A stretch of 64,000 nucleotides of DNA from Pigmentibacter sp. JX0631 (lineage in GTDB: Bacteria > Bdellovibrionota_B > Oligoflexia > Silvanigrellales > Silvanigrellaceae), in NCBI RefSeq assembly GCF_029873255.1, contig NZ_CP123622.1, forward strand, positions 2,070,001-2,134,000. The letters run 5' to 3'. The first letter of the stretch is position 1; every line of letters begins with the position of its first letter. The translations under genes were made by a program, and so were the position numbers. Positions 56,559-62,056 of this stretch are shown in pieces. A model generated the notes under the pieces. That model was not told the origin of the DNA and ran no database searches. It saw only the letters and a program-made list of their open reading frames with translations.

Positions 56559-57485
56559 TCAACCTAAAAGCTTTAAAGCCATTTCAGGGATTTGATTTGC
56601 TTGGGAAAGAACAGAAATTCCGGCTTTTTGCAATATGGTTTGTTGCACAACTTGAGAACTTTCCTCTGCATAATCAGAGTCTTTGATTCTTGATTTTGCT
56701 GCTTCTAAGTTTTCAATAGTCATACCTGTGTTTGCAGCTGCGTATTGCATTCTGTTTTGGATGGCGCCTAAAATAGCTCGATATTCATTAACTTTATCAA
56801 TGGCCTTATCCAAACGAATCATACTGCGTTGAGCAAAAATCTTTTTATCAACTCTTGTTCCTTCTTCATCTGTTACAGTTCCTATTTCGAGAGAGCCCTC
56901 TCCACCTGTTAAAGCATTAATTTTTTCTAAATTAATTCTGATAATATGGGTAGGATTCCTAACCGTATAAAGATCATCTACTTCAGGGTAGTATGAAGCC
57001 CCAACTTGTATTTCTAACGGAGGAGGGTTGCTGTTTTCTTTCAGGACAGCCGGAATCTCTGCTGCTCCAGTGAGAAGTCGGGTTCCATTAAATTCAGTAG
57101 AATAGGCAATTCTATCAATTTCATCTTTAAGGGCAACAAATTCTTTTTGGATGTGCCCTCGCTCTAAATCTCCTATTGTATCACTCGCAGCTTGGACTGA
57201 GAGTTCTTTTAATCTTATCAGCATATTTGATATTTCGTTCAAACCACCTTCTGCCGTTTGTATTAAACTAATCCCGTCATGCGTATTGCGTTTTGCTTGG
57301 ATGAGACCTCTAACTTGTGAACGTAGTTTTTCAGAAATAGCAAGTCCCGCAGCGTCATCAGCTGCTCTATTAATTCTATACCCACTCGCAACTCTTTCAG
57401 TATGTTTAGCTAAAGCAAGGGTTGACACAGCTAAATTCCTCTGTGCATTGATTGAGCTAATATTCGTTTGTACCCTCAATCCCAT
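56559..57485 (-). CDS. fliC: Flagellin
   Basis: This 308-residue filament protein has an N-terminal D0/D1 helix, MGLRVQTNISSINAQRNL..., with SGYRINRAADDAAGLAIS. The C-terminal helix ends SVLSQANQIPEMALKLLG, the usual flagellin end. Only a short central region (about 130-220) separates D1 parts, so the filament should be smooth and thin. GGAG precedes the ATG. It lies 29 bases after the HEPN-like gene; no FliA-type promoter is evident in the gap. Confidence 0.95.
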   Translation of the reverse strand: MGLRVQTNISSINAQRNLAVSTLALAKHTERVASGYRINRAADDAAGLAISEKLRSQVRGLIQAKRNTHDGISLIQTAEGGLNEISNMLIRLKELSVQAASDTIGDLERGHIQKEFVALKDEIDRIAYSTEFNGTRLLTGAAEIPAVLKENSNPPPLEIQVGASYYPEVDDLYTVRNPTHIIRINLEKINALTGGEGSLEIGTVTDEEGTRVDKKIFAQRSMIRLDKAIDKVNEYRAILGAIQNRMQYAAANTGMTIENLEAAKSRIKDSDYAEESSQVVQQTILQKAGISVLSQANQIPEMALKLLG

Positions 57486-57514
57486 TTTTACTTCTCCGTG
57501 AAGGATTTACCCTC

Positions 57515-60436
57515 TTACTGAGTTTGGGCTTCTAGGTTTCTTCCTATTGTAAGGCAAGTTGAAATGATTTTATAGGCTTGGTGACGCATTGTTTCAATTT
57601 CATCACGCGCTTCCCATGTCAAGCCTTCATGTACGGCACGATTTCTACTATCTTGGAGAGAATGGACTAGTTTAATAAATTCAAAAAGTTCAATATCATC
57701 TGAAAAATTTAGGGAAATAATTTTATTTAATTGAAATTGGCATTCTTGCCTAGATGCTACTAAAAGTAACAAGGCAAATGCTTTGGGGCCATCCAAAGTA
57801 AAACGCTTTCCAGGCCTGTATAAACATATCGCCCGCAGCATTTTGCGTAATTTAAATTTACTAAAATAAGGAATGGTACGTATTGTTGGAAGATTGGCAA
57901 TATATTCTTCAAAAGCCGTCATTTTTTCAACGATACCTTTTCCGTAACCAATTGAGTCTAACCTTTTTGATAACTCTCCTTTTCTAATAATTGAATCAGT
58001 ATAAGCCTCAAAGGTATCCCGCATAGTTAACTCAACAGCTTTGCAATGCATATTAACAATAGGACTTAAATCTACAGCTTCATTCCCCCATTCTTTTGAT
58101 TGAATTAAGATCATTTCAGCTGTTCGGAGCGCACTCTTAGAATCAATTGATAAAGTAGTGCTATTAGGAATAAAAGATTTAATGACAAGATCGATATCTT
58201 GGGAAGATATTTTTTGATCATTTTTTATAGAGTTGTCATTTTGCGGAGGAATTAATTCTATTATTTTTTTTATAGCGTATTGCAATGCTGTATCTACTTT
58301 TTCATTTAGTCGCATAAATTGCAAAGTTTTAAATTCCTGTAAAATTTCTTCAGGATTAACTAAGGGAATTTCATTTATTATTTTTATTTTAATTTCATCA
58401 CTAATAGAAGGTTTAGAAATTAAGCGAATCAAAGCCTGGTGAGCTCTTGGATGTTTGGATTTTAACAATTCTACAATAGTGTGTTCCACAAAATCGATAT
58501 CAATATGTTGCAATGCTTGATATAATATAGCTTTAATTGCATCGTCAGAATCTAATTTTACTAGGGCTCTTACTATCCATCTTTTTTCAACATGTGGAGC
58601 GACCCGCAAACCTTCGCGTATAAATTTTTCATAGAAATCTTTTTCTTCACCACTTAAATTAGAATTTAAACAAACTTGCAGAATAGCTCCCCAACGCATG
58701 ATAGGTCTATCACTATAATAATTTCCATTCCAATCAGAGGAATCGCTATCATTTTCTTCTTCTGTTTGTTGGGAAGTATTGTCCAAAATTGATTGAATTA
58801 AATTAGATATATCTTTAAGAGTTTCTAAAGTTTTTTGAGTAATTGGTACTCTAAATTGATTTGCGCCTACTAAAATAGATTGGAAGCGTGATGTTACTTC
58901 TAGAATGTATTCATCTTTTTCCATGTTTCCACTAATTAATGTATTTCTAATAGTTTCTAATTCACTTTGAATTGCCAAACTTATTGTATGGAGGTCTAGC
59001 TTTGGAGCGCTTAATGCTATAGCAGTAAATGCCCAACTAGTTCCTGAAAAAGGTATAGTTTTATACAATTCATTCATAAAATAAGTAGAATAAGATCCGC
59101 CAATGGTTGCAGAATAAATTTTATCAACCCAGCGATCATATGTGCTGAGTTTTATATCCCCATTTTTCTTATGAAACATTTTTATATTACTTAACACTAT
59201 TTTTTCATGTAATATATAATTCTGAAGATTATATTTATCTGTATTGATGTTACCTAAAGCGAATACTTGGGCTAGTAGTAAATCGATATCACAATTTTTT
59301 TCAAATAAATTTTGCCAATCTTTTGTTTTTTTTGTAAGGAAAAAATTGTCATAATTTAAAAAAGTAAAATTTAAATCATTTGATAATTTATGCCAAATAT
59401 TAAAATTTTCGGGATTTGTAATTGATTCATTAAAAATTTCTGAAGCATATGGTTTGAAAAGACCCCATATTTTACAAACAGAAGGTTGTAATTTTTCAAC
59501 ATTTATTAAACCAATCTTGGGATCTTGCGCTAATATATTTATTAATATTGGATCTTTTAATTTTAAAATTACACATAATATTTTTAATAAATTTTCGAAA
59601 TTAGTTTCTGTAACCAAAATTTCTTGCAAAGATTTAGCTAATATTTCCTTGTTAAAGCAATTAAAGCCTGTGAAATTTGGTAAAATATTATTAGCGTTAT
59701 TATAGATAAAATCTTTGGCAGATTTCTGATTAAAGTTTTCACTTTGGTAATAAGAAATTTGATTATATATTAATTGAGATACCCTAATTAACTTGGTATT
59801 AATTAATTTGTTTAATATTGAATTTAATTCATCTATTTTTAACGAAAATCCTAAATAAAGTAAAGCCGATATTGCTGAGTTGCTTTTTAAAATTAAATTT
59901 CTTTCATTTTCAAGAATAGAAATAGCTATTTTATTAGCTTTTATCGATGAGTATCCTAAACTAAGAAATGTATTGAATCCTTTTGATAGGATGTAGTCTG
60001 GCAATTTATCATGAAATGAATTTTCGAAAGCTGAAATAAATCTTTCGTCAGAAGTTTGCTCAATATAATGGTAAATTGCATATAATATTTCGTCTACCTG
60101 AGTGTGCTTTTCTAGTAAATTTTTTATTCTGTGAGAAAAAGATGAGATTTTAGAGTTAGCTAATGCCATAATGCAGCTGCTTAATACACTTGCATTAGTT
60201 TCTTTTAATAACAAATAAGAAATGATCGCCCATTCACTACTCGGTGTACTAGGAAGTGAGAGTGAAGAAGCTAATTTTGATTTTTCTTCTTGGGTAGGAA
60301 TGAGAGACATAATTTGCCAAATAAGCAAATTTCCCTGCCAGGATTGAGAATTTTTTACCAACTTTTCTATTGCATTGTAGCGATCATTTGCATTTTCAGA
60401 ACGGACATATTGTTTTAAATCTTGAAAAATTGGCAT
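57515..60436 (-). CDS. Large helical-repeat protein with C-terminal HEPN-like motif
   Basis: The ATG at 60436 has GGGAG eight bases upstream; the frame could also open at a GTG at 60445. The 973-residue product is almost wholly alpha-helical. HEAT-like repeats are suggested at the N-terminus (ERLVKN-, IMALANSK- and LLKSKHPRAHQALIRLI-type units). The last ~110 residues carry RNRAVHEG (Arg931, His936), the Rx4H pattern of HEPN nucleases. No signal peptide or membrane segment. It lies between an aldehyde dehydrogenase gene and flagellin. Function unknown. Confidence 0.6.
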   Translation of the reverse strand: MPIFQDLKQYVRSENANDRYNAIEKLVKNSQSWQGNLLIWQIMSLIPTQEEKSKLASSLSLPSTPSSEWAIISYLLLKETNASVLSSCIMALANSKISSFSHRIKNLLEKHTQVDEILYAIYHYIEQTSDERFISAFENSFHDKLPDYILSKGFNTFLSLGYSSIKANKIAISILENERNLILKSNSAISALLYLGFSLKIDELNSILNKLINTKLIRVSQLIYNQISYYQSENFNQKSAKDFIYNNANNILPNFTGFNCFNKEILAKSLQEILVTETNFENLLKILCVILKLKDPILINILAQDPKIGLINVEKLQPSVCKIWGLFKPYASEIFNESITNPENFNIWHKLSNDLNFTFLNYDNFFLTKKTKDWQNLFEKNCDIDLLLAQVFALGNINTDKYNLQNYILHEKIVLSNIKMFHKKNGDIKLSTYDRWVDKIYSATIGGSYSTYFMNELYKTIPFSGTSWAFTAIALSAPKLDLHTISLAIQSELETIRNTLISGNMEKDEYILEVTSRFQSILVGANQFRVPITQKTLETLKDISNLIQSILDNTSQQTEEENDSDSSDWNGNYYSDRPIMRWGAILQVCLNSNLSGEEKDFYEKFIREGLRVAPHVEKRWIVRALVKLDSDDAIKAILYQALQHIDIDFVEHTIVELLKSKHPRAHQALIRLISKPSISDEIKIKIINEIPLVNPEEILQEFKTLQFMRLNEKVDTALQYAIKKIIELIPPQNDNSIKNDQKISSQDIDLVIKSFIPNSTTLSIDSKSALRTAEMILIQSKEWGNEAVDLSPIVNMHCKAVELTMRDTFEAYTDSIIRKGELSKRLDSIGYGKGIVEKMTAFEEYIANLPTIRTIPYFSKFKLRKMLRAICLYRPGKRFTLDGPKAFALLLLVASRQECQFQLNKIISLNFSDDIELFEFIKLVHSLQDSRNRAVHEGLTWEARDEIETMRHQAYKIISTCLTIGRNLEAQTQ

Positions 60437-60508
60437 TCTGTTCACTCCCTACCCAAAGTGATTTATAGTCAAAAAATACTTTGGGGGCAATTAAAAACAA
60501 AAAGGAGA

Positions 60509-62056
60509 TTAAATTTTAACTGTGTAATCAGTTGGATTAATATAGTGAGTATCCATTTGTGCAAGTTGCAAAGTTCCGCTCATATCCCAATTAACAGATT
60601 GCCACTTTGTAAATTGATCAACAACCCAAATTCCTGATTGTCTACTGCCATTTCCGCTTTTTCCATTCCCTCCAAAAGGAAGATGCGCTTCAGCACCCGT
60701 CGTACTGTTATTTATACTTGTCATTCCAGCTGAAATTTCTGTCCTAAAACGATATGCAGATTGAACATTGTTTGTATATATAGCTGAACTTAATCCATAC
60801 CCTGTTTTATTTGCTAAATATATAGCTTCATCAAGGTCACTAAAAGATAAAAGATTGAATATTGGGCCAAATGTTTCAGTTGAGAAGATAGCGTCTTCAG
60901 CTGTGACGTTGTCAACAATACTTGGAAATGCATAATATCCTAAGTTTGCATTTCCAGAAAAATTTTCTGGTTTTACAGTATCAGTGATACGGCCATTCTT
61001 TGCAGTTAATAATTTATGATGAGGTTTTACTAAATTTTCCAAGTTATCAATATGTTTCTTTAAAAATTTTTCACTAATCATAGGTCCATAAAATATGGTT
61101 TCATTTAATGGATTTCCAATATGAATATTTGTAACTTTATCGAGTAATTTTTTAGTAAGTGATTCTTTAATTGATTTATGCACAATTAAGTTACCTAATG
61201 ATGTGCAGCGTTGACCAGCTGTGCCAAAACCTGCCCACAAAGCTCCATTTACAACAAGATCTAGATCAGCATCTGGCATGACAACCATCGGATTTTTACC
61301 GCCAAGCTCTAAACAAGGAGTTTGCAAATTACGGCCACAAATTTCACCAATTTGTTTTCCAACCTCTGTACTTCCGGTAAATCCTATTTTATCTATCAAT
61401 CCCTCATCGACCAAAGAAACTAATGCAGCACCTGTTTTTGTACCTGAACCAAAAACAACATGGAAAACATTCTTTGGAACTCCTGCTGCGTATAACATTT
61501 CAGCAAAAATCATAGACAAATATGGTGTGTCTTCTGATGGTTTCCATACACAGACATTTCCGCAAACCAAAGCAGGAATAAAATACCAACTTGGAACTGC
61601 AAAAGGAAAATTTCCAGCGGTTATACAAGCAAATACACCAAGTGGTCTGCGATAAGTATACAATTCTTTGTTGCGCATTTCGCTCGGTACAGTTTGTCCG
61701 TATAATCTTCTGCCTTCAGAAATAAAAAAATAACAAGTATCAATGGCTTCTTGAATATCACCACGAGCTTCCTTTATAGGCTTGCCCATTTCTCTGGTTA
61801 ATATCTGTGCCAAGGATTCCTTATTTTTTTCTATTAGTTTAGCAAAATTTGCTATAATTCCTGCACGAATCGGTGGGGGAGTGTTTTTCCAATTTTCCCA
61901 ACCTTTTTTTGCTTCACTACAGGCTTCTCGACACTCATCTTTAGTTGCATTTGCAAAAACAGCTACAGTATCTTCTTTATTTGCTGGGTTTATTGAAGGA
62001 AATTGATCTGTCCCTATGGTTCTTTTACCAGAAATAATAGATGAAATTGCACTCAT
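60509..62056 (-). CDS. NAD(P)-dependent aldehyde dehydrogenase
   Basis: This 515-residue ALDH-fold enzyme has ITAGNFPFAVPSWYF, WKPSEDTP and GFTGSTEVG (cofactor site). The catalytic Glu is in LELGGKNP and the nucleophile Cys in AGQRCTS. The end SINNSTTGAEAHLPFGGNGKSG resembles the ALDH7 (aminoadipate-semialdehyde/piperideine-6-carboxylate) group more than betaine aldehyde types. The substrate is unproven. Its ATG lies within the stop of the ABC transporter gene (four-base overlap). Confidence 0.88.
   Translation of the reverse strand: MSAISSIISGKRTIGTDQFPSINPANKEDTVAVFANATKDECREACSEAKKGWENWKNTPPPIRAGIIANFAKLIEKNKESLAQILTREMGKPIKEARGDIQEAIDTCYFFISEGRRLYGQTVPSEMRNKELYTYRRPLGVFACITAGNFPFAVPSWYFIPALVCGNVCVWKPSEDTPYLSMIFAEMLYAAGVPKNVFHVVFGSGTKTGAALVSLVDEGLIDKIGFTGSTEVGKQIGEICGRNLQTPCLELGGKNPMVVMPDADLDLVVNGALWAGFGTAGQRCTSLGNLIVHKSIKESLTKKLLDKVTNIHIGNPLNETIFYGPMISEKFLKKHIDNLENLVKPHHKLLTAKNGRITDTVKPENFSGNANLGYYAFPSIVDNVTAEDAIFSTETFGPIFNLLSFSDLDEAIYLANKTGYGLSSAIYTNNVQSAYRFRTEISAGMTSINNSTTGAEAHLPFGGNGKSGNGSRQSGIWVVDQFTKWQSVNWDMSGTLQLAQMDTHYINPTDYTVKI

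Follow-up and report, generated by a model that had tools for sequence, protein, structure and literature searches.

In prokaryotes, ribonucleases of the HEPN superfamily are chiefly known as toxins, defence effectors and CRISPR accessories, which genomes gain and lose. In eukaryotes, the HEPN RNase Las1 has a core role in pre-rRNA processing, and the Ire1/RNase L-type KEN domains likewise have intrinsic RNA-cutting roles. The published layout of the domain places an Rx4-6H motif at the end of helix 3, with a polar residue (N/D/H) after the arginine; a variable insert separates helix 2 from helix 3, and in many families helix 2 also carries an acidic Ex3[KR] motif (PMC3710099). Fusions of HEPN domains to repeats have been described as well, namely TPR with LA2681 and C6orf70/DUF4209, and HEAT with AbiJ-NTD4 (PMC3710099). 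Here we analysed a HEAT-HEPN-like protein encoded in the window, by which we mean the whole 64,000-nucleotide stretch of Pigmentibacter sp. JX0631 DNA under study. The gene and the two parts of its product are as follows.

57515..60436, minus strand: HEAT-HEPN-like protein gene, an open reading frame with homologues in 44 of 56 relatives
58247..60436, minus strand: N-terminal HEAT-like helical solenoid, residues 1 to ~730, drawn from HEAT_2, AlphaFold, Foldseek and the paralogues
57518..58216, minus strand: C-terminal HEPN-like domain, residues 741-973, the most conserved region, drawn from AlphaFold and a dN/dS of 0.04

The 973-residue reading frame that a preliminary description had placed at 57515-60436 was borne out and lies on the minus strand; it is counted from an ATG, and a GTG start three codons upstream (60445) would give 976 residues. 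The gene is chromosomal and single-copy, with a GC content of 0.296 against 0.306 for the window. Just upstream of its start lies an inverted repeat, CCCAAAG...CTTTGGG (window 60452-60485), which we dropped as a candidate because it is not kept in the closest relative. One orthologue (L040:7666-10652, genome G013) reads as two open reading frames of 123 and 833 residues, its N-terminal part being broken by a frameshift or by an error of assembly.

The full-length AlphaFold model, built on a 21-sequence alignment, is all-helical (mean pLDDT 82.8, pTM 0.70), and its best PDB matches in Foldseek were HEAT solenoids, among them condensin CAP-G, CAND1 and importins (E 8e-5 to 1e-3). The sole Pfam stretch in the full protein was HEAT_2 at residues 618-677 (E 3.8e-4, below the family cut-off); when the full protein and its tail were searched against Pfam, NCBIfam, PADLOC and PHROGs, the only matches were HEAT_2 and weak, mostly sub-threshold ones. 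Clear HEAT_2 repeats in a paralogous family, found in 14 of 14 members with a best E of 3.6e-22, support the HEAT nature of the more divergent solenoid in the window. The helical hairpins of HEAT-repeat proteins were recognised by HEAT_2, by Foldseek and through the paralogues. The preliminary description had been right about the kind of repeat but had assigned some 850 residues to it; the repeats stop near residue 730.

The compact region at the end of the protein is correspondingly larger than had been supposed, a domain of ~230 residues (741-973) instead of ~150. AlphaFold modelled this domain confidently from 34 sequences (pLDDT 95.1, pTM 0.92), with helices at 764-783 and 791-819, several short ones, and two further long helices at 914-937 and 941-972 in whole-protein numbering. 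Two motifs stand out.

57629..57646, minus strand: R931-N932-R-A-V-H936, the Rx4H motif that closes helix 914-937, recognised from 54 of 54 distinct homologues and from its helix placement
58019..58033, minus strand: E802-x3-R806 in helix 791-819, a candidate acidic Ex3[KR] motif, invariant in orthologues

The sequence RNRAVHEG, previously reported near the protein end, was confirmed at residues 931-938 of 973, with Arg931 and His936 as the ends of the motif. In the model, RNRAVH closes the penultimate long helix (914-937), and helix 941-972 comes next. Across 21 full proteins, R931, N932, R933, A934, H936, E937 and G938 are invariant, as are E802, R806, K799 and D882; a FKLRK.LR / PG.RFTLDG block is largely so. 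An HMM search that made no use of the motif gathered 54 distinct C-terminal stretches, and every one carries RNxAxH, 42 in the form RNRAxHEG and 12 as RNxAAHR; judged by these alignments, its conservation exceeds chance.

The paralogues (~900-960 aa; alignment A3, L116-L129; for example L120:5975-8749) occur in about 15 genomes of the class. They share with the window protein an architecture of HEAT repeats ahead of a common C-terminal domain (hhalign of the two families' tails, E 5e-21), and differ in the clarity of their HEAT_2 repeats and in VDKS...DGLRAW motifs of their own; no member was found in the window's genus. Their C-terminal domain, for which there is no Pfam model, carries RNxAAHR; R806 is replaced by other residues, and the position of E802 stays Asp/Glu. 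Nine columns are invariant across orthologues and paralogues together (R771, K799, F858, D882, Q928, R931, N932, A934 and H936). RN-xxx-H has evidently been held under constraint in two long-separated lines.

Set against the published HEPN layout, the domain shows the conserved Rx4-6H motif (54/54), an invariant polar residue, N932, after the arginine, placement of the motif at the end of helix 3 (914-937) before helix 4 (941-972) and, in orthologues, the acidic motif of helix 2 (E802xxxR806), of which paralogues keep the acid alone. Searches for known relatives gave a different picture. For the domain, Foldseek searches of PDB and BFVD returned nothing at E<=0.001, and HEPN entries (Csm6 8jbc, 4nqf, RnlA 6y2s, 1wwp) surfaced in the PDB list at noise level (E 2.8-5). 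Neither Pfam and NCBIfam scans of the domain nor a PDB sequence search with two C-terminal-domain profiles gave a significant match. With HEPN alignments that were small and drawn from the same relatives' genomes, hhalign against PF05168, DUF4145 and RiboL-PSP gave E 0.03-0.6, compared with 0.012 for a reversed decoy; the DUF4145 and RiboL-PSP alignments place the motif regions together, at scores no better than the decoy. A second, HEAT-slice control was disregarded, being probably contaminated by short homologues whose tail lands there. Furthermore, paralogue tails weakly matched the HEPN part of CARF-HEPN effector models (E 1.2e-3 to 0.03). The earlier proposal of a HEPN RNase therefore stands on its invariant motif, helix-end placement, N932 and E-x3-R, but not on any significant fold or profile match; likewise, structure prediction, which had been suggested as the check on the fold, yielded a confident helical model with the published HEPN layout but no Foldseek hit at the threshold given above. 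This lack of a significant structural or profile match would suit a lineage-specific helical domain with no relation to HEPN, its Rx4H being a look-alike of the HEPN motif. Such a coincidence would have to extend to the motif, its polar neighbour, the helix-end position and E-x3-R, all of which agree with the published layout, and we think it improbable. We regard homology of the C-terminal domain to HEPN as probable.

Homology would still allow a non-catalytic domain that serves RNA binding or protein pairing only, with RN-xxx-H in a structural part. Some HEPN domains do serve binding alone (PMC3710099), and the conserved basic stretch FKLRKMLR...PGKRFTLDG, which the C-terminal domain bears in a long insert, could bind nucleic acid. 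Loss of the arginine and histidine among homologues, named in the preliminary description as grounds for giving up a nuclease, was not seen: R931, N932 and H936 are kept in all of them. In HEPN domains judged inactive, R or H has usually been lost. We accordingly rate a purely binding domain as unlikely, and lean towards the HEPN-like protein being catalytically active, as its retained residues would suggest.

In the phylum sample, a tail-profile search was positive for 47 of the 58 genomes and for 35 of the 39 good ones, tallies that include a few genomes with the paralogue only. Scanning 84,980 species genomes with tail patterns, which miss divergent relatives, recovered 36 loci, most of them titled Silvanigrellales, Oligoflexales, Spirobacillus, Fluviispira, Pseudobacteriovorax and kin, together with metagenome-assembled genomes under vague or unlikely labels. 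Family members also appear in records titled Betaproteobacteria (L054) and Zetaproteobacteria (L086); the former title looks wrong, since the locus was placed in the window's own family. In the gene tree, families f1, f10, f6 and f4 each occupy a single branch with support of 99-100, as expected from vertical descent. Comparison with the closest orthologue gave a dN/dS of 0.09 overall, 0.14 for residues 1-300, 0.04 for residues 741-973 and 0 for residues 921-945; the gene is under strong purifying selection, and its N-terminal solenoid evolves faster than the C-terminal domain. Plasmid, phage and viral-contig collections held no relative of the protein. The HEAT-HEPN-like protein is class-wide, vertically inherited and non-mobile within the Silvanigrellales/Oligoflexales lineage.

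These observations bear on whether the protein acts in anti-phage defence or abortive infection, its solenoid sensing a phage product and freeing the HEPN RNase so that translation stops, much as the preliminary description had entertained in calling it a possible phage sensor. Rx4-6H HEPN domains are indeed common in defence (PMC3710099), CARF-HEPN models and a TPR-type PADLOC model were matched weakly, and the solenoid evolves faster than the tail (0.14 vs 0.04). Neither a mobile or patchy distribution nor defence-island neighbours were found, however: the gene is near-universal, single-copy, vertical and syntenic, with no defence genes beside it in the loci read and no relatives in plasmids, phages or viral contigs, whereas undisputed HEPN families are patchy in the same genomes (PF05168 in 19/52, DUF4145 in 3/52, RiboL-PSP in 3/52 and DUF4209 in 1/52). 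Against PADLOC, the full protein matched 0 families at E values up to 5, and its own tail likewise matched 0. A HEPN-MNT-type antitoxin or nucleotidyltransferase partner was likewise not found, no small neighbour gene being conserved across 21 loci. Class-wide vertical inheritance, conserved non-defence neighbourhoods and the lack of plasmid, phage or viral relatives thus weaken the phage-sensor idea; a mobile defence gene is not supported, and an anti-phage role has in our judgement only a small chance of being correct.

The neighbours of the gene in the window are a flagellin gene downstream and an aldehyde dehydrogenase gene upstream.

56559..57485, minus strand: flagellin gene, downstream neighbour, with Pfam Flagellin_N and Flagellin_C matches at E 4.7e-41 and 4.1e-22
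60509..62056, minus strand: aldehyde dehydrogenase gene, upstream neighbour kept within family f1, from a Pfam match at E 2.2e-141 and synteny

We confirmed that flagellin starts 29 nt past the stop codon of the HEAT-HEPN-like gene on the same (minus) strand. Within f1, the window's own family (Silvanigrellaceae; loci L031-L040), gene order is constant in loci with both flanks: ABC transporter, aldehyde dehydrogenase, HEAT-HEPN-like gene, flagellin, PTPS/QueD-like and radical SAM/QueE-like. Flagellin is adjacent in 10 of these 10 loci at a stop-to-start gap of 2-30 nt (2-9 nt in eight, with 29-30 nt separating the genes in the window and in its closest relative). The flagellin ribosome-binding site lies at or inside the end of the HEAT-HEPN-like gene (window 57486-57560; f1 loci), and in several f1 loci it falls within the last codons of the upstream gene. 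This arrangement suggests that the two genes may be co-transcribed or translationally coupled in f1. Synonymous divergence drops to 0-0.1 over the last 13-21 codons, a constraint explained by the flagellin ribosome-binding site located there; an embedded flagellin promoter was considered and rejected, as no other synonymous-site trough was seen. Elsewhere in the class, typical neighbours are a FabG-like reductase, a KAS-III-like synthase and a protein without a Pfam match. A divergently encoded protein of ~320 aa, also without a Pfam match, adjoins the gene in Oligoflexales-type genomes (L044:5499-6470; C10 cluster, 7 loci). Outside f1, the loci read contain no flagellin near the gene, and the flagellin link is a family-level acquisition; the adjacency to flagellin described earlier is constant within f1 but absent from the loci read in the rest of the class. 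The window's own genome (G000) has ~8 flagellin-like loci. Two of them stand in tandem (792650-794394), and another was found in two pieces (469749-470582). That the protein processes or controls the downstream flagellin mRNA draws on the 2-30 nt spacing in all 10 f1 loci, the ribosome-binding site at or inside the gene end and the low synonymous divergence there, but we consider it very unlikely, since that constraint is accounted for by the ribosome-binding site, the genome holds several other flagellin-like loci, and flagellin control cannot be the ancestral role when no flagellin lies nearby outside f1.

The explanation that we place first, and to which we give about an even chance, is that this single-copy, vertically inherited chromosomal gene encodes a HEPN-type endoribonuclease on a HEAT scaffold, one that serves the cell's own RNA processing, RNA decay or stress control. 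Under this model, the C-terminal domain would pair into a dimer, and the paired domain would cut single-stranded RNA without metal; in the manner of other Rx4-6H HEPN RNases, H936, together with R931, N932 and E802, would activate the 2'-OH. The solenoid may bind a regulator or the RNA substrate and so set the timing of cutting. The role would be intrinsic rather than one of phage defence. In Silvanigrellaceae the gene also shares one operon-like unit with the flagellin gene. A more far-reaching form of this explanation is tentative and, to our mind, somewhat doubtful: a core bacterial HEPN ribonuclease, a class-wide HEAT-HEPN protein in housekeeping RNA processing or decay, which would be the functional counterpart of eukaryotic Las1 and was later tied to flagellin expression in Silvanigrellaceae.

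No paper on a HEAT-HEPN family of this kind, or on HEPN in this class, was found in the literature searched, and the Pfam and NCBIfam releases searched hold no family model. Repeat-fused HEPN proteins were already known; what appears to be new is a HEAT-HEPN family that spans a class by vertical descent and is covered by neither Pfam nor NCBIfam. For want of such models, annotation currently misses two paralogous families of some size. If the domain is of HEPN type, a near-universal protein with an invariant motif and a HEAT scaffold would point to domesticated, intrinsic RNA cutting in bacteria.

Compared with known systems, the protein shares with HEPN superfamily RNases (Anantharaman et al. 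2013, PMC3710099) an Rx4H that closes a long helix and has Asn after its Arg, an acidic Ex3R in an earlier helix and a helical insert between them. It differs from them in having no significant match to the tested families by sequence, profile or fold, in its long conserved FKLRKMLR...PGKRFTLDG insert and in being near-universal and non-mobile. Like the LA2681-type, C6orf70/DUF4209 and AbiJ-NTD4 proteins, it joins a HEPN-like domain to alpha-helical repeats; these are TPR in LA2681-type and C6orf70/DUF4209 proteins but HEAT in the window protein, which, set beside LA2681, DUF4209 and AbiJ, gives no Pfam DUF4209 match and is not associated with restriction or abortive-infection genes. The comparison with Las1 is a works-like analogy only: both are lineage-wide, vertically inherited and retain their catalytic residues, whereas their domain architectures differ, and the likeness would be one of function.
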